Below, one piece after another: positions 9,699 to 17,785 of a DNA stretch of 20,469 bases. The stretch comes from an uncultured Clostridia bacterium. GTDB lineage: Bacteria; Bacillota_A; Clostridia; Oscillospirales; Oscillospiraceae. The translations under genes and the position numbers were made by a program. The DNA lies in assembly GCA_949289625.1 (NCBI GenBank), contig CASEPH010000263.1, positions 1 through 20,469 of the forward strand. The letters run 5' to 3'. Each line of letters starts with the position of its first letter. The stretch's first letter is position 1. The notes under the pieces were generated by a model. That model worked only from the letters and a program-made list of their open reading frames with translations, did no database searches and was not told where the DNA came from.

Positions 9699-10640
9699 TT
9701 ATTTTTTCAGTGTCAGGGCGTGCCGTACCTTTTCTACGATGCCTGCGGCATTGAGTCCGTAGGCGTCCAGCACGGCCTGAGCCTTACCGGAACGGCCAAA
9801 GACATCCTCTACGCCATGACGAACCACAGGGACGGGGCAGCCTTCCGAAACCACTTCCGCAACAGCGGAGCCCAGACCGCCCATTACATTGGCTTCCTCG
9901 GAGGTGATGATACAACCGGTTTCCCGGGCAGCCTGAAGCACCAGGTCCCGGTCGATGGGTTTGATGGTGTGCATATCAATGACGCGAATATCCAGTCCCT
10001 CGGCGGAGAGAGTATTGGCAGCTTCATAGGCACACTGGACCATCATGCCGGTGGCGATAATGGTGGCATCCTTTCCGTCTTTCAGGACGCTGCCTTTGCC
10101 CAGGGCAAAGGTGTAGCCGGGAATAGTATCCGTGACGGACTCCACAGCCAGCCGGCCCAAACGCATATAGGCGGGGCCGTCATACTCCAGCAGGGCTTTG
10201 ACCGCCAGCTCCATTTCCGGTCCGTCACAGGGGGAGAGTACTAGCATCCCGGGAATGGCACGCATAATGGCGTAATCCTCGATGCACTGATGGGTGGCGC
10301 CGTCTTCGCCCACACTGAGACCGCCGTGGGATCCGATGACCTTCACGTTGAGGCCGGGATAGGCGATGGAATTGCGGACCTGCTCCCAGGCCCGGCCGGC
10401 GGAGAACATGGCGAAGGAATTCATAAAGGGCTTTTTTCCGCAGGTGGCAAGACCGGCGGCCACACCGGCCATATTGCCCTCAGCAATGCCCATATCAAAG
10501 AACCGATCAGGATACCGGTCTGCAAAGGTTTTTGTCATGGTAGAGCCGGAGAGGTCGGCGTCCAATACCACCAGCTCCGGATACTGCTCTGCCAGGTCGG
10601 CCAAAGCCTGACCATAGGCAGCACGGGTTGCAATTTTCAT
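9699..10640 (-). CDS. Transketolase, C-terminal subunit
   Basis: A 313-residue half-transketolase: the pyrimidine-binding domain (residues ~1-165, with DADLSGSTMTKTF, FDMGIAEGNMAGVAAGLA containing the cofactor-activating Glu, and SHGGLSVGEDGATHQ) plus the C-terminal domain (~185-313, VIDMHTIKPID). It pairs with the N-terminal subunit encoded just upstream to make one enzyme, which moves two-carbon units between sugar phosphates in the non-oxidative pentose phosphate pathway. Only 2 bases separate the upstream stop (10643) from this ATG; GGAGG lies inside the end of the upstream gene. Substrate choice within the split-transketolase group (pentose phosphates or related sugars) is not certain from sequence alone. 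Confidence 0.93.
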   Translation of the reverse strand: MKIATRAAYGQALADLAEQYPELVVLDADLSGSTMTKTFADRYPDRFFDMGIAEGNMAGVAAGLATCGKKPFMNSFAMFSAGRAWEQVRNSIAYPGLNVKVIGSHGGLSVGEDGATHQCIEDYAIMRAIPGMLVLSPCDGPEMELAVKALLEYDGPAYMRLGRLAVESVTDTIPGYTFALGKGSVLKDGKDATIIATGMMVQCAYEAANTLSAEGLDIRVIDMHTIKPIDRDLVLQAARETGCIITSEEANVMGGLGSAVAEVVSEGCPVPVVRHGVEDVFGRSGKAQAVLDAYGLNAAGIVEKVRHALTLKK

Positions 10641-10642
10641 GG

Positions 10643-11488
10643 TTATTCCGCCTCCAATCTGCTCAGGAGCTCCGTGAGCTCTGTTTTGCCGGTTTCGTAC
10701 TGCTCCTGGTTGGGGGCTTTGCCGTGCCAGCCGGCGTTGTTCTCCATATAGGAGATGCCCTTGCCCTTGACGGTGTTGGCCAGGATCATGGTGGGCTTGC
10801 CCTTGACAGTCTTAGCGGCTTCAAAGGCGGCCTCGATGGCCTCGTAATCATGGCCGTCGCAGTGGATCACATGCCAGCCGAAGGCCTCGTACTTCTTGTC
10901 CAGAGGCTCAGAGGGCATGACGTCGGAAGTTTTGCCGTCGATCTGCAGGCCGTTGACATCCACCACCGCGCAGAGATTATCCAGCTTGTACTTGGCCGCT
11001 GCCATAGCGGCTTCCCAGGTTTGTCCTTCCTCGATCTCGCCGTCACCCAGAATGGTGTAGACCCGATAGTCCTTTTGATCCAGCTTGCCGGCGATGGCCA
11101 TACCAACGGCAGCAGAAATGCCCTGTCCCAGGGAGCCGGTGGACATATCTACGCCCTTGACATGGACCATATCAGGATGGCCGGAGTAATGGGCGTCGAT
11201 CCGGCGGAACTTGTGCAGCTCCTCCACGGGGAAATAGCCCCGCAGTGCCAGGATGGAGTAGAGGGCGGGGGTACAATGTCCCTTGGACAGCACAAAGCGG
11301 TCCCGATTCGGATCCTGGGGCTTTTCTGGGTCGATGTGCATGACGTCAAAATACAAAACCGTCAGCAGGTCCATGGCGGACATGGAGCCGCCGGGATGGC
11401 CGGAGGCTGCCTCATAGACGCACTGCAGCGCCAGAAGGCGGCCCTTAGCAGCCGTGATGGCCAAGGCTTTTTTCTGCGTTTGATCCAT
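10643..11488 (-). CDS. Transketolase, N-terminal (thiamine diphosphate-binding) subunit
   Basis: A 281-residue N-terminal half. It contains SGHPGGSMSAMDLL, FVLSKGHCTPALYS, STGSLGQGISAAVGMA and the diphosphate/Mg2+ binding motif GDGEIEEGQTWEAAMAAAKYKLDN with the following VVDVN. It needs the next gene's product to complete the active site, which forms at the interface. The ATG at 11488 has AAGGAGTG upstream. The glyS stop is 35 bases away with no terminator between, so glyS and both transketolase genes are probably one transcript ending at 9659-9688. Confidence 0.94.
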   Translation of the reverse strand: MDQTQKKALAITAAKGRLLALQCVYEAASGHPGGSMSAMDLLTVLYFDVMHIDPEKPQDPNRDRFVLSKGHCTPALYSILALRGYFPVEELHKFRRIDAHYSGHPDMVHVKGVDMSTGSLGQGISAAVGMAIAGKLDQKDYRVYTILGDGEIEEGQTWEAAMAAAKYKLDNLCAVVDVNGLQIDGKTSDVMPSEPLDKKYEAFGWHVIHCDGHDYEAIEAAFEAAKTVKGKPTMILANTVKGKGISYMENNAGWHGKAPNQEQYETGKTELTELLSRLEAE

Positions 11489-11523: not shown

Positions 11524-12954
11524 TTAAAATGCAATTTTCTCAGAAATATAGGCAGCTACCTGATCGATGGGCATACGCACCTGCTCCATGGTATCCCGAT
11601 CCCGGACGGTGACGCAGTTGTCTGCCGGTGTGTTTTCGTCGCCCACGGTCTGGAAATCCACAGTGATGCAGAAAGGTGTGCCAATCTCGTCCTCCCGACG
11701 GTACCGTTTGCCAATGGAGCCGGTCTCGTCATAGTCGCACATAAAGTGCTTGGAAAGCTCTGTATAGATTTCCGTGGCCTTGTCCCCCAGCTTCTTGGAC
11801 AGGGGCAGTACCGCGCATTTAAAGGGAGCCAGAGCGGGATGGAAGTGCATGACCACGCGCACGTCGTCCTTGCCATTTTTATCCTGACCTACCACCTCTT
11901 CGTCGTAGGCGTTCACCAGGAAGGCCAGAACAGACCGCTCCACACCGAGGGAAGGCTCGATGACATAGGGGATATAGCGGGTGTTCTTCTCCTGATCGAA
12001 GTAGGTCAGATCCCGACCGGAGGTGTTTTGATGCTGGGTCAGGTCGTAGTCGGTACGGTCCGCCACACCCCAGAGCTCACCCCAGCCGAAGGGGAAGAGA
12101 TATTCAAAGTCCGTGGTGGCCTTGGAGTAGAAGCACAGTTCCTCGGGATCATGATCCCGCAGCCGCAGGTTTTCCTCGGTCATACCCAGGGAGAGCAGCC
12201 AATCATGGCAGAAGGAACGCCAATACTGGAACCACTGAAGATCAGTGCCGGGCTCACAGAAGAACTCCAGCTCCATCTGCTCAAATTCCCGTACACGGAA
12301 AATAAAGTTGCCGGGAGTAATCTCATTCCGGAAGGATTTGCCGATCTGGCCAATACCAAAGGGCAGCTTTTTGCGGGTGGTGCGCTGAACATTGACGAAG
12401 TTCACAAAGATGCCCTGGGCCGTTTCGGGACGGAGGTACACGGTATTTTTCGCATCCTCGGTGACACCCTGGAAGGTTTTGAACATCAGGTTGAACTGCC
12501 GAATGTCAGTGAAGTTGTGCTTGCCGCAGGTGGGACAGGGAATGTTGTGTTCTTCGATAAAGGCTTTCATCTCTGCCTGAGAGAAGGCGTCGATGGGCTT
12601 GTCCAGGGTGACGCCGTTTTCTCCGGTCCAGTCCTCGATGAGCTTGTCGGCCCGGAACCGTTCGTGGCATTCCCGGCAGTCCATCAGAGGATCGGAAAAG
12701 CCGCCCAGATGGCCGGAGGCAACCCAGGTCTGGGGATTCATCAAAATGGCGGAATCCAGGCCCACATTATAGGGATTCTCCTGGACAAACTTTTTCCACC
12801 AGGCCCGCTTGACGTTGTTTTTCAGCTCCGCGCCTAACGGTCCGAAGTCCCAAGTATTGGCCAAGCCGCCGTAGATCTCGCTGCCTGAAAAAATAAAGCC
12901 TCTGTTTTTGCAGAGGGCAACGATTTTATCCATGGTTTTTTCCGTGTTTTTCAT
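11524..12954 (-). CDS. glyS: Glycyl-tRNA synthetase, single-chain class II type
   Basis: A 476-residue alpha-chain-only GlyRS (the archaeal/eukaryotic-like form, not the GlyQ/GlyS alpha-beta form). Class II motifs are clear: motif 2 as [21 protein letters not shown] and motif 3 as [15 protein letters not shown]. The early [18 protein letters not shown] block is typical of the family. A CxxC pair (C93/C96) and a second (C140/C143) look like an intact zinc site. A C-terminal anticodon-binding domain with the ending [12 protein letters not shown] is present. It attaches glycine to tRNA-Gly. GGAGG lies 10 bases before the ATG at 12954; an alternative start at Met8 has no better site. It is transcribed from 13017-13044, with no T-box leader seen. 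Confidence 0.96.
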
Positions 12955-12992
12955 ATGAAATTTGCCTCCTCAGCAACATTCTTTCATAAATC

Positions 12993-13008
12993 TGGCATAG
13001 ATATGCCA
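12993..13008. promoter_or_regulatory. Palindrome at the glyS transcript 5' end
   Basis: TGGCATA-GA-TATGCCA is a perfect 7+7 inverted repeat beginning just downstream of the expected glyS transcription start. It could be a protein operator or a 5' hairpin that stabilises the mRNA. Confidence 0.55.
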
Positions 13009-13016
13009 ATAATAAC

Positions 13017-13044
13017 ATTATAACCGCTCCCGGGCCAAAGTCAA
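13017..13044 (-). promoter_or_regulatory. glyS promoter
   Basis: Minus strand TTGACT (13039-13044), 16-base spacer, TATAAT (13017-13022). The leader to the glyS ATG is then only about 55 bases. Confidence 0.82.
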
Positions 13045-13157
13045 CCACGATTCATGGTTTTTCCAGTGTTTTGGGGCTTTTTGTGGCACAATACAAATTC
13101 AGAACGGAAAAGGCCGGGCAATTACGTCGATTTTACGACAGGGCAGAATATACAGGT

Positions 13158-13198
13158 GCAGGCGGACAGTCCCCTTGAACTGTCCGCCTGCGATTTTT
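13158..13198 (+). terminator. Strong hairpin with a plus-strand T-run, no plus gene before it
   Basis: A perfect 13-bp GC-rich stem (GCAGGCGGACAGT / ACTGTCCGCCTGC, loop 13171-13178) is followed on plus by GATTTTTAG. The only gene upstream on plus lies more than 5 kb away across opposing genes. On minus the hairpin has no T-run but could be the 3' end of the candidate RNA described at 13158-13390. Confidence 0.7.
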
Positions 13199-13390
13199 AG
13201 GAGTGTATGTGTTGGTCGTGTGTGTTGCGCAGCCCCGGCCCTCTGGCAAGGGCCGGATCAGCTGTGCCGGACAGACGGTTCTGGCAGCCGTCTGATCCCA
13301 AAAGAAGGAGATATGAGTGTGTGGCCTTCTGTGATACTGGCATATCACTGGCTTGAAACGTACCACTTGTTACATACGTTTCGACCACGT
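13158..13390 (-). ncRNA. Candidate structured RNA with three identical-loop hairpins
   Basis: Minus-strand RNA expected to start near 13388 from a strong promoter. Back-to-back perfect stems fill 13235-13382: GAAACGTA/TACGTTTC (13355-13382); GTGATA/TATCAC (13331-13348); AGAAGG/CCTTCT (13303-13330); GGATCAG/CTGATCC (13255-13298) enclosing ACGG/CCGT and CTGT/ACAG, which would form a three-way junction; and CCGGCCCT/AGGGCCGG (13235-13256). Three of the loops carry the same hexamer, TGCCAG (13243-13248, 13281-13286, 13337-13342). An A/C-rich unpaired stretch and a 13-bp hairpin follow. Small ORFs on either strand here lack usable ribosome sites. I recognise no known RNA family, and no T-box, 6S or SRP hallmark is visible. 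It could be an independent RNA or part of a long glyS leader. Confidence 0.55.
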
Positions 13391-13394
13391 TGCC

Positions 13395-13423
13395 ATCATA
13401 CCACAGTCGTACGGATGTGTCAA
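13395..13423 (-). promoter_or_regulatory. Strong sigma-A promoter for the structured RNA
   Basis: Minus strand TTGACA (13418-13423), 17-base spacer, TATGAT (13395-13400). The -35 box contains the stop codon (TGA, 13420-13422) of the acyltransferase gene. Confidence 0.85.
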
Positions 13424-14460
13424 TACCTTTTTCGGCGAAAATGGGCGAAAATCACCGGTACTGGGTTGGGGCAGTTGGTAAGCCGGGCCGGCAGCGAAAT
13501 CCGGCTGGTCACAAACCGGCGATAGAGGCAGCCCAGCACCAGACAACCCAGAAGGATGCAGGCCCAGTAGCGGTTCCGCAGGGAGACTGTTGCCAGAAAG
13601 ATCTTATAGATTGCCATATGTATCATCAGTATTTCTCCGGAGGCTTCTCCACACCGCTCCACGGGACGCATCAGCATGGAAAGAAATCTGCTTTTTCGGA
13701 GCAGCGCGGCCAGATCCGCCACCATGATAGCACCGCCAGGGATCAGCAGGGCAAAGGGATACCACCACAGCCCCAGGGAGTTGCCGTAAGTCCATCCGAT
13801 CCCCCAGAAGGTGACAGGGACCAACCACAGGCCCACCAAGGCCAGGGGGTAGGCAATGGCCCGCAGGAGCCATTGCTTTGAAAAGCCACGCTGTTCCAGA
13901 CAGCCGAAGAGAATCCCTGTGAAAAATACAGGCAGCCGGGTGACGATCACTAAAAAACGGTCCGCAGGACAAAACAGGCACAGGGGAAATGACAGGACGG
14001 TCAGACAGAGCCAGAGCAGAACGGGATGTTTGACCCGGCTAAACAGGCGGTAGAGAGGGACGGCCAGCAGGAAGAACAGCCATACGGCGGAGAAATACCA
14101 GTTGAGCTGATTCATCTGGCCGAACCACCAGCCGATGAGGGTGATGCTGCCCAGTACGGCCAGGCCGCTCATCAGGCCCATCAAAAACATGATCAGGCAC
14201 CAGGGGATCAAAATCAGGTAGAGGCCCGGCAATAGCCGCAGGGCACGTTGGCGAAGGTAGCCCCAGCCGCCCCGGCTGCGAATGGAATGACAGGCGCCCA
14301 AGCCCGATAAAAAGAGAAACATGTCCACGCCGCAGTAGAGCATATCGTGGAGCAGCTTCAGCCAGGGATTATGGATCACAAAGGGCGCATGATAAAAGAC
14401 AACGCCGCAGATCGCCAGTCCCATGAGCAGACTGCGGGCAGATCGAAGATTTTGAAACAA
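13420..14460 (-). CDS. Acyltransferase family 3 membrane protein
   Basis: A 346-residue integral membrane protein with about ten hydrophobic segments. The N-terminal LLMGLAICGVVFYHAPF carries the family's conserved His in the first helix, and GVDMFLFLSGLG matches the second conserved block (usually G-v-d-l-F-F-v-l-S-G). Later helices include WYFSAVWLFFLLAVPLY and YWACILLGCLVLGCLY; the tail is basic (FRRKRY). The family transfers acetyl or other acyl groups to sugars in exopolysaccharide, lipids or cell wall; the acceptor is unknown. The start is TTG at 14460, two codons past the stop of the CbiE/CbiT-like gene, with AGGTGA upstream. The genes are thus coupled. No terminator separates its end from the RNA promoter downstream. 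Confidence 0.83.
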   Translation of the reverse strand: MFQNLRSARSLLMGLAICGVVFYHAPFVIHNPWLKLLHDMLYCGVDMFLFLSGLGACHSIRSRGGWGYLRQRALRLLPGLYLILIPWCLIMFLMGLMSGLAVLGSITLIGWWFGQMNQLNWYFSAVWLFFLLAVPLYRLFSRVKHPVLLWLCLTVLSFPLCLFCPADRFLVIVTRLPVFFTGILFGCLEQRGFSKQWLLRAIAYPLALVGLWLVPVTFWGIGWTYGNSLGLWWYPFALLIPGGAIMVADLAALLRKSRFLSMLMRPVERCGEASGEILMIHMAIYKIFLATVSLRNRYWACILLGCLVLGCLYRRFVTSRISLPARLTNCPNPVPVIFAHFRRKRY

Positions 14461-15467: not shown

Positions 15468-15496
15468 TTGCATAACGAACTATTTTGTGCTATGAT
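15468..15496 (+). promoter_or_regulatory. Promoter of the beta-helix gene
   Basis: TTGCAT (15468-15473), 17-base spacer ending TGC, TATGAT (15491-15496), again an extended -10. The leader is about 25 bases and carries AAAAGGAGG. Confidence 0.72.
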
Positions 15497-15526
15497 GGGG
15501 ACAAATCCCAAAAGGAGGAATACCAG

Positions 15527-17785
15527 ATGAGTCTGTTCAAAAAAGTAATGGACCCCGGCCCGGGCATGCCCATGGGAGGACCGGGAGGCCCTGGCGGTCC
15601 GGGAATGCCTATGGGAGGCCCTGGTGGTCCTGGAGGCCCTGGCGGCCCGGGCATGCCCATGGGAGGACCGGGAGGCCCTGGCGGTCCTGGTGGCCCCGGT
15701 GGTCCTGGTGGTCCGGGAGGACCGCCGCCCATGGGACCCACCAAGCCCGGCGATCCTGCGGAACTGGAGGATTTTGCCGAAGTTCAGCACAAGGAGGCTG
15801 TGGCCCTGTGCTACAACCTGGAGCTGATTGAACCAGTGGAGGAGGATGGCAAGTTCTATCTCAAGGCCCAGGCACCCATGGAGGCCCAGGACCGAAAGAT
15901 CATGGCGGAAAAGGCGGCCAAGCTGAAAAAGCTGGAGACGGCCTATGTTCCTGCTGGTCCTTCCTTGGATGAAGCCTGTGCCCAGCTGGTGGAGGCCATG
16001 AAGTCCGGAACGGAAGGACTTCCCTGTTTGAAGCTGGTGCCGGAAACGGTACAGCTGGATTCCCTGACCATTGGGGAAACAGAACTTTATGTGGCAGCGC
16101 CGGGAAAGGATTTGACCATGACGGTTTCCGGGGTGGGAACCAACATGAAGCCCGGTACCTATCAGAACGTGACCCTTACGGTCACTGATGCCTATACCAA
16201 GACCACCGGCGGTCCTGGCGGCGTACATACCCACCACTTCCGTGCCGCGCTGTTTGTCAAGGACGGGGCCATTGAGGAAAATAAGTCCGTAAAGGCGGCG
16301 ATTCTGGCAGGTACGGCCGACGGCAGCAAGGCTGAAGGCCTGAAGATCGACGATCATCAGCATCTGTTCAATGGTGTCATGGTGACCGGCGGCAAATATG
16401 CCATTGAGGGGGCGGACCTCTCCTTTGTGGGCCATGGCGGAAACGACTTCCAGGGCTATGGCGCAGGGATTATGACCACCGGCGACGCGGATGTTACGGT
16501 GGAGAATTCCAGAATCCATGTGGAGGGCGCCATCCGCTCTGCGGTCTGGTGCGGTGGAGAGAGCCATCTTATAGTGAAGGATTCCGTCATTGATTCCATC
16601 GACGCGGATCCCTTTGACGAGGATTTCCGCAGCCTGTCTGTGCCCATGATGAAATCCGTGCCCTTTGCACTGGGCCTCATTGGAAACTGCCGGGCCACCA
16701 ATGTGCTGGATGCCGGCCAGGTGACCTATGAAAACTGCATTGTTGTGGCGGACAACTGGGCGCCCCTCTCCACGGATTCCGGCCATCCCCCCACGTCCCT
16801 GACGGTCAAAAACGTGCTGGCCGGTGTGGGCCGTCTGGAGGAAGCGCAGCCCGGGAAAACCTATACTGCCACCAAGACGGTGGCCGGAAAGACCTGGGGC
16901 TACACTATGGGCGGCAGCGGCTATATTGCCTATGGCGACGGCGGCGTGGTGGATACCTTCGAGGACTGCCAGTTCTATTCTCCTGACTATCTGTTGATCT
17001 GCACCGGCGTTCAGCCCATGACCTTTAAAAACGTCACCGGTAAGGCAGGCCGGGCCCTGGCCATGTGGCACCAAGCCCGTGGTGGACAGCTCTTCATTGA
17101 GGGCGGCTCCTACGACATTGAGAAGTGCGCCTTCCAGATCAAATCCGGCGCCTATGTCCATATCGACATGAAGGATGCGGCGCTGAAGCTGGGGGATGGC
17201 GGTGTGCTGATCCAGCAGCTGGAGAGCGATGATGCCGGCGGTATCGTCACCCGGAAATATGAGGTGCCCATGCAGGAGGACGATTGGTCCACTGTGGCGC
17301 CGGCCCAGCAGGAGATCCCGGATTCTACGGCGGTGTTTACTAATGAGACGCTGAAGGGTGATATTTTTAACTCTGTCTATGGGTCAAAGCATGGCCTTAG
17401 CGTCACGCTGAAGAATACCACCCTCACGGGCGTCGTTTCCTCCTCCAACGCCAATCACCTGTTTGCCGATGGCACGGTAGCGCCTGGCGGCACGGTGTTT
17501 GAGCAGGACAATCATTGGGATGCAAAAACGGCAGCAGATTATAAGATTATCGACCCCAAGGCGTATCTCTACGCGGGGCGGCTGAAAAACACCCCGGCTC
17601 CTGCGGTCAATAACCCGGTGAAACTGAGCCTGGAGGATGGTTCCGTGTGGAATGTGACTGGAACCAGCTATCTGGCAGGTCTGGCCTTCTCCAAGGATAG
17701 CAAGGTATGCGGAACCATCACGGTTAATGGTACTGAGGTGGATGCACCGGGAAGCTATGTGGGTGAAATTGTGGTAACGCCATAG
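15527..17785 (+). CDS. Collagen-like / beta-helix repeat protein (752 aa), no signal peptide
   Basis: The start ATG at 15527 follows AAAAGGAGG by 8 bases. Residues ~9-70 are Gly-Gly-Pro triplets broken by PGMPMGG blocks (collagen-like). Residues ~75-170 are an acidic, Lys-rich helical region (ELEDFAEVQHKEAVALCY; EAQDRKIMAEKAAKLKKLE). From ~185 to the end it is Gly/Asp/Val-rich with repeated short strands such as GADLSFVGHGGNDF, ADVTVENSRIHVEG and LIVKDSVIDSID. This is the pattern of a right-handed parallel beta-helix as in pectin-lyase-fold proteins. There is no signal peptide, membrane helix or LPxTG sorting signal, so either it is cytoplasmic or it leaves by an unusual route. I recognise no catalytic motif. 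It is a single gene between its promoter and a bidirectional terminator. Confidence 0.85.
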   Translation: MSLFKKVMDPGPGMPMGGPGGPGGPGMPMGGPGGPGGPGGPGMPMGGPGGPGGPGGPGGPGGPGGPPPMGPTKPGDPAELEDFAEVQHKEAVALCYNLELIEPVEEDGKFYLKAQAPMEAQDRKIMAEKAAKLKKLETAYVPAGPSLDEACAQLVEAMKSGTEGLPCLKLVPETVQLDSLTIGETELYVAAPGKDLTMTVSGVGTNMKPGTYQNVTLTVTDAYTKTTGGPGGVHTHHFRAALFVKDGAIEENKSVKAAILAGTADGSKAEGLKIDDHQHLFNGVMVTGGKYAIEGADLSFVGHGGNDFQGYGAGIMTTGDADVTVENSRIHVEGAIRSAVWCGGESHLIVKDSVIDSIDADPFDEDFRSLSVPMMKSVPFALGLIGNCRATNVLDAGQVTYENCIVVADNWAPLSTDSGHPPTSLTVKNVLAGVGRLEEAQPGKTYTATKTVAGKTWGYTMGGSGYIAYGDGGVVDTFEDCQFYSPDYLLICTGVQPMTFKNVTGKAGRALAMWHQARGGQLFIEGGSYDIEKCAFQIKSGAYVHIDMKDAALKLGDGGVLIQQLESDDAGGIVTRKYEVPMQEDDWSTVAPAQQEIPDSTAVFTNETLKGDIFNSVYGSKHGLSVTLKNTTLTGVVSSSNANHLFADGTVAPGGTVFEQDNHWDAKTAADYKIIDPKAYLYAGRLKNTPAPAVNNPVKLSLEDGSVWNVTGTSYLAGLAFSKDSKVCGTITVNGTEVDAPGSYVGEIVVTP
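15557..15735 (+). repeat. Gly/Pro tandem repeats of the collagen-like tract
   Basis: A 44-base block beginning GGCCCGGGCATGCCC occurs at 15557-15600 and again, identical, at 15644-15687, 87 bases (29 codons) apart. A diverged middle copy starts near 15600. Exact identity at third codon positions points to recent duplication or slippage, unlike the codon-varied Ser/Pro linker at 6621-6769. Confidence 0.85.

Follow-up and report, generated by a model that had tools for sequence, protein, structure and literature searches.

A candidate structured small RNA beside glyS in one genus of Oscillospiraceae, with repeated UGCCAG loops, CUCCU segments and a 5′ motif shared with ppdK leaders

Among described small RNAs (sRNAs), SR1, FsrA and RoxS/RsaE stand closest to the RNA considered here. 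According to the parts available of one account (PMC8464778), SR1 of Bacillus subtilis is a 205-nt RNA with a sigma-A promoter that blocks translation by base pairing and whose transcription is tied to central carbon metabolism, FsrA has C-rich regions proposed to pair with ribosome-binding sites, and RoxS/RsaE pairs with its targets through pyrimidine-rich segments, Hfq not being needed in the case of ppnKB. In the same parts of that account, the sole pairing of FsrA proven in vivo, with gltAB, bypassed its C-rich regions (PMC8464778).

The RNA that we describe lies beside glyS in a stretch of 20,469 nt from an uncultured Clostridia bacterium of the Oscillospiraceae (contig CASEPH010000263.1), the whole of which is called the window below. 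In kind it comes close to FsrA, RoxS and SR1, but no test places it in any of them. With SR1 it has in common that it appears to be a stand-alone sRNA of similar length with a sigma-A promoter, and that it would act on translation through base pairing and be linked to central carbon metabolism, sequences having been compared only through Rfam. SR1 encodes a small protein, whereas the RNA beside glyS has no peptide shared beyond two nearly identical copies (G194 and G043); this difference was judged by the peptides shared among five copies. SR1 is controlled by CcpN, and Kinase-PPPase is encoded next to ccpN in B. subtilis. A CcpN-type neighbourhood was dropped as a candidate, its marker Kinase-PPPase (PF03618) being found in 0/5 genomes; since this search covered only the marker PF03618, the parallel with SR1 is one of kind only.

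FsrA (84 nt) and RoxS/RsaE (115 nt) differ from the RNA beside glyS, which would measure about 230 nt and may contain a three-way junction besides its repeated UGCCAG loops. What it shares with them is unpaired CU-rich segments complementary to Shine-Dalgarno sequences, namely ACACUCCU in all five copies and UAUCUCCUU in four. Another likeness, that of several hairpins with one repeated loop, is to CsrB and RsmZ, which carry repeated GGA motifs in hairpin loops; here the loop is UGCCAG instead, and none of the five hairpin loops of the window fold holds GGA.

To our knowledge, little work deals with riboregulation in uncultured gut Oscillospiraceae. Our searches for CUCCU sRNAs in clostridia, C-rich anti-Shine-Dalgarno sRNAs and Oscillospiraceae RNA motifs found no literature, subscription titles being mostly outside their coverage, and none of the papers on UGCCAG loops, in the parts available, appears to describe an sRNA beside glyS.

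Promoter, limits and spread of the RNA

The features of the RNA are collected in Table 1. We compared five copies, from the window and from the relatives G194, G043, G133 and G243, of which G194 and G043 are nearly identical.

Table 1. Positions in the window of the promoter and of the elements of the candidate sRNA
Feature	Position	Strand	Remarks
Sigma-A type promoter TTGACA-17-TATGAT	13395..13423	minus	TTGACA 13423-13418, TATGAT 13400-13395
P1, 5′ arm GUGGUC	13383..13388	minus	at the inferred start; not so paired in the minimum-energy fold of the window
P2 hairpin GAAACGUA-UGUAACAAGUGG-UACGUUUC	13355..13382	minus	AACAAGUG invariant in 5/5; motif also in ppdK leaders
P3 hairpin GUGAUA-UGCCAG-UAUCAC	13331..13348	minus	4/5 copies, replaced in G243
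P1, 3′ arm GGCCAC	13321..13326	minus	closes the three-way junction
Segment UAUCUCCUUCUUUU	13300..13313	minus	complementary to Shine-Dalgarno sequences; UAUCUCCUU in 4/5 copies
P4 hairpin CAGACGG-CUGCCAGAA-CCGUCUG	13272..13294	minus	loop absent in G194, G043; CGCCAG in G133
P5 hairpin CCGGCCCU-UGCCAG-AGGGCCGG, outer stem CAGC/GCUG	13235..13256	minus	4/5 copies
Segment ACACUCCUAA	13197..13206	minus	ACACUCCU invariant in 5/5 copies
Terminator-like hairpin	13158..13191	minus	last hairpin in 5/5 copies

The promoter of the original prediction is present with 11/12 matches and a TG before the -10 box, and from its position transcription would start near 13388. TTGACA-17-(TATGAT or alike) stands before all five copies, while the identity of the window spacer is 13/17 with G194 and G043, 14/17 with G133 and 4/17 with G243. 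Among the window, G194, G043 and G133 the spacer CATCCGTACGACTGTGG (13401-13417, minus strand) agrees at 13-16 of 17 positions, which is unusual for a spacer; those of G194, G043 and G133 contain ACAAGTG, which is absent from that of the window.

At the other end, a U-run follows the last hairpin in G194, G043 and G243; the window has none on the RNA strand and G133 none that is clear. A terminator scan of the G194 locus called no terminator. Around the terminator-like hairpin of the window (13157-13192) the T-run is on the plus strand, with no obvious plus-strand gene before it. The plus strand folds nearly as well as the minus strand (z -5.7), so fold energy does not set the direction, which rests on the promoter and on the U-runs of G194, G043 and G243. 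No peptide with a Shine-Dalgarno-like site is shared across the five copies on either strand beyond the near-identical G194 and G043, and a protein-coding gene on either strand was rejected, peptides being common only to these two. The plus strand carries an RBS-like AAGGAGATATG. Judged by these sequence features, the locus probably encodes a separately transcribed, structured sRNA of about 230 nt running from about 13388 to 13158 on the minus strand.

In G194 and G043 the acyltransferase gene, the RNA and glyS are kept together, and in G243 glyS follows the RNA. In G133 the RNA sits away from glyS, between genes which we take from their translations to be SDR-like and MATE-like, and both promoter and body are kept. 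Since promoter and 3′ hairpin accompany the RNA at this other site, it is best read as its own transcription unit. Were it instead a cis-acting leader or attenuator of glyS, its place on the same strand directly upstream of glyS in 4/5 copies would follow naturally; this reading is nevertheless very improbable. The RNA is set apart from glyS by a terminator-like hairpin and by a promoter-like site of glyS itself (13044-13017), and in G133 it is retained without glyS as its neighbour. At the 80 named glyS loci among the matches listed, BLAST detects no copy of it (no E value under 0.30), and neither a T-box nor any other Rfam leader reaches the gathering score. We accordingly do not count it among the cis-acting glyS leaders or T-boxes, which lie upstream within the glyS transcript, a position that it does not appear to take. 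Between the promoter-like site of glyS and the glyS ribosome-binding site there is an inverted repeat, TTGGCATA-TC-TATGCCAG (12992-13009, minus strand), which by eye is absent from the glyS leaders of G194, G043 and G243.

No known family had been recognised at first sight, and the Rfam search that was proposed as a check agrees: Rfam 15 has no match at gathering score in the window. Seven matches below threshold fall within 12950-13600, the best being a trypanosome snoRNA on the terminator hairpin (E 0.03). Used as a DNA query, the RNA matches 4 of 400 genomes of the same family at E 0.001, and these four (G194, G043, G133 and G243) are all the genomes of one genus in the searched set. The window glyS itself is near to that of other Oscillospiraceae, with 85-86% identity to Faecousia and Oscillibacter as the best of the 80 named loci listed. 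We also scanned for pairs of TGCCAG hairpins lying in a span of 150 bases, and none turned up at these 80 named glyS loci or in 20 stretches of G043; the scan is insensitive, because it recovers only the window and G133 of the five known copies. Phages gave no match, and 21 plasmid records matching one 25-base piece at E 0.8 were taken as chance. That this is a real structured sRNA gene, new to description and so far restricted to one genus, seems to us very probable.

Elsewhere in the window, transketolase is encoded as two adjacent genes for its N-terminal and C-terminal halves (9699-11488, minus strand). A 766-aa ORF (15485-17785, plus strand), which has a long Gly-Pro-Met repeat close to the N-terminus, matches nothing in Pfam or NCBIfam at E 0.001.

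Fold and conservation among the five copies

That the promoter is followed by packed hairpins holds on the minus strand, three of the hairpins having a UGCCAG loop. The sharing of this loop, claimed in the original prediction, is borne out as well: TGCCAG is found on the minus strand at 13342-13337, 13286-13281 and 13248-13243, and in the minimum-energy fold every copy is part of a hairpin loop. The middle copy is in a 9-nt loop, CUGCCAGAA; the first and last can be hexaloops, which the program draws as GCCA loops closed by a pair between the outer U and G. For the full 266 nt the folding energy is -111.1 kcal/mol, versus -80.1 ± 4.9 for 200 shuffles (z -6.3), and for a 193-nt piece without the terminator hairpin z is -4.7, with none of 2000 shuffles equally stable. 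In the same piece, any hexamer common to at least three hairpin loops arises in 1/2000 shuffles and any pentamer in 10/2000.

The three-way junction proposed for one segment is not in the minimum-energy fold of the window, but its closing stem P1 can form there. All four relatives have P1 in their minimum-energy folds, where this closing stem forms around two hairpins. The window, G133 and G243 fold P2 in one and the same register; in G194 and G043 this first hairpin inside the junction is in a different register, AUGGAAC/GUUCCAU, with AACAAGUG 0.58-0.59 unpaired.

Common to all five copies are AACAAGUG, ACACUCCU and UUGCCAG. Stem bases change among the relatives, partly on both sides, while loops and segments stay. 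The expectation of a conserved loop proved right for P3 and P5, where UGCCAG is kept on varying stems in four of five copies each, but the P4 loop varies, UGCCAG being found there in the window and, by alignment, in G243. The G243 copy is shorter, with another hairpin in place of P3 and CCUCCC instead of the first segment; its single UGCCAG, the one aligned with P4, lies outside the hairpin loops of the predicted fold (mean unpaired probability 0.32). The best conserved parts lie outside the UGCCAG loops and had been missed by the original prediction: they are AACAAGUG, ACACUCCU, UAUCUCCUU and the motif that recurs in ppdK leaders.

With helices placed by hand, 5-6 of 6 pairs of P1 and 6-8 of 8 pairs of P2 can form in the five copies, and 7 of 8 pairs of P3 and 7-8 of 8 pairs of P5 in four, G243 being left out. 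Standard pairs that differ on both sides occur at two positions each in P1, P2 and P3 and at none in P5. In a four-row alignment, which includes the near-identical G194 and G043, the share of cells that pair is 89.5%, as compared with 20-64% when partners are slid, and 27/500 shuffles reach the same share. The check for compensatory changes in the stems that had been suggested gives two both-sided changes in this alignment, a number reached by 44/500 shuffles. When a covariance model was trained on four copies (window, G194, G043 and G133), it recovered the fifth, left-out copy of G243 at E 9.6e-6. With strict filters it matches 6/380 genomes, only two of them outside the genus, and these two we regard as noise, as their E values are 0.044-0.048 over 380 genomes. 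The predicted structure is supported by the pairing and by the model test, and by the covariation counts only modestly.

The UGCCAG loops and the 5′ motif shared with ppdK

The analogy drawn with CsrB, with CsrA as the partner, is not supported: CsrA (PF02599) is found in none of five genomes, the four of the genus and G021 (with a control positive in 3/14 and assemblies that may be incomplete), and the loops are without GGA. A CsrB-type sponge for CsrA is unlikely. Hfq is found in G021 and in none of the four genus genomes, whose assemblies may be incomplete. Alternatively, the RNA could be a sponge or scaffold in which UGCCAG provides repeated sites for a protein that is not CsrA, leaving the CUCCU segments a secondary role. 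Such a role would suit three identical loops on different stems, a pattern reached in 1/2000 shuffles, and the retention of UGCCAG in P3 and P5 while stem bases change; it sits less well with the lower counts in relatives, two in each of G194 and G043 and a single copy, outside hairpin loops, in G243, and with CsrA being found in none of the five genomes, and we hold it to be unlikely.

UGCCA is also the core of the anticodon loop of tRNA-Gly(GCC), possibly by coincidence. The proposal that the UGCCAG hairpins mimic the anticodon arm of tRNA-Gly (U33-GCC-A37) and bind glycyl-tRNA synthetase draws on this match and on glyS following the RNA in the window, G194, G043 and G243. It is highly doubtful, given that the RNA of G133 is not beside glyS, the loops have 6 or 9 nt instead of 7, a promoter-like site belongs to glyS itself, and a five-letter match is weak. 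A tRNA scan of 18 loci found only tRNA-Gly(CCC) among glycine tRNAs. UGCCAG is, in addition, a motif reported for m6A in E. coli mRNA, the enzyme there being unknown according to the available parts of two papers (PMC7509114, PMC12096079), and the title of the latter denies a specific benefit. Both likenesses of UGCCAG, to the m6A motif and to the anticodon loop, may be coincidence.

The 5′ hairpin motif YGTATNNAACRAGTGNNAYG is found exactly at eight places in five genomes: in the sRNA of all four genus genomes, in the ppdK leaders of G194, G043 and G243 and in the gapdh leader of G021, ppdK and gapdh being names that we assign from the translations. The exact AACAAGTG motif is in the gapdh leader of G021, a genome outside the four-member genus. 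When 29 ppdK upstream stretches were inspected by eye, only G194, G043 and G243 had the motif; 29 of 40 genomes had matched ppdK at E 1e-100, and ppdK of G133 was not found at that threshold. In 345 genomes of the order the motif occurs only in G194, at both places, with one control match.

A looser form, searched in 400 genomes of the family, gives 13 places in 12 genomes (control matches in two genomes), 6 of them leaders or the sRNA and 7 coding stretches; these seven were dropped, as they lie inside a stretch reading VYNKCD or VFNKCD. A short form with one mismatch has 7 matches in ten genomes versus 9 for the reversed control, and a longer form with two mismatches has 18 in five genomes versus 8 for its control. 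Of these 18, eight are exact; the other ten look like coding sequence or noise and were set aside. Exact matches in 15 viral contigs were also discarded, being by eye apparent coding sequence of a few repeated kinds. What counts is therefore the exact form alone, together with its position directly downstream of a promoter.

It appears that this 5′ element may act either as RNA or as DNA. Its unsymmetrical core and the pairing partly kept through G-U in the sRNA speak for RNA; the near-fixed distance from the -10 box, the spacer sequence ACAAGTG, the poor pairing in leaders and the other register speak for DNA. At its furthest, the DNA reading makes the shared sequence nothing but an operator; the body would then be an sRNA that evolves fast, and its folds would reveal little of how it works. 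The GTAT of the motif lies 16-17 bases after the -10 box in the sRNA and ppdK promoters (13 in gapdh), the promoter spacer is itself conserved (with ACAAGTG in G194, G043 and G133), two of the four leaders, those of G243 ppdK and G021 gapdh, pair at only 5/8 positions in the hairpin, and the sRNA of G194 and G043 folds in the other register. For a DNA site, however, the core AACRAGTG lacks symmetry and the several arm changes of the sRNA that keep pairing, some via G-U, would be needless, and the RNA body keeps its other loops and segments. An operator only is, in our judgement, unlikely.

CUCCU segments and a proposed mode of action

Both CUCCU segments hold the core of the anti-Shine-Dalgarno sequence. 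For the CUCC of ACACUCCU the mean unpaired probability is 0.99 in the window, 0.99 in G194, 0.97 in G043, 0.49 in G133 and 0.46 in G243; for that of the upstream segment it is 0.41, 0.92, 0.92, 0.93 and 0.60, respectively, so that six of the ten values are at 0.92-0.99 and four at 0.41-0.60. Further CUCC in G194, G043 and G243 is mostly paired (0.20-0.28 unpaired). As far as can be told from sequence, two conserved CUCCU segments are the anatomy of an sRNA that would cover ribosome-binding sites. They name no target, because CUCCU pairs with almost any good Shine-Dalgarno sequence: the energies of the segments with 16 start regions of window ORFs range from -2.5 to -15.3 kcal/mol and yield no defensible target. 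Duplex energies of the whole sRNA with leaders were discarded, since the program joined distant pieces.

We propose the following mode of action. The 5′ part can fold as a three-way junction, the UGCCAG hairpins come further on, and the terminator-like hairpin would close the RNA. Between the hairpins, the two CUCCU segments would pair with the Shine-Dalgarno sequences of other mRNAs and so block ribosome loading, the hairpins holding these segments open and stabilising the RNA. The UGCCAG loops would probably be a docking site for some partner. By way of the 5′ motif, which recurs in the ppdK leader, a single regulator may control both the RNA and pyruvate phosphate dikinase; it would act either on RNA or on the DNA immediately downstream of the promoter. 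For the CUCCU pairing the gltAB case of FsrA serves as a warning. Taken as a whole, an sRNA that pairs at Shine-Dalgarno sequences via CUCCU, with loops for docking and a control element shared with ppdK, has in our view about an even chance of being right. A bolder version, which we consider rather unlikely, would make it a new RNA class that forms a circuit with ppdK, in which the 5′ control element AACRAGUG is common to the sRNA and this mRNA of central metabolism, UGCCAG is read by an RNA-binding protein or a modifying enzyme and CUCCU serves silencing, with neither Hfq nor CsrA detected.

If the proposal is true, a conserved sRNA with repeated loops would be an entry to a new RNA-binding partner, and a control element common to this sRNA and ppdK would be an entry to the regulation of the PEP-pyruvate step.
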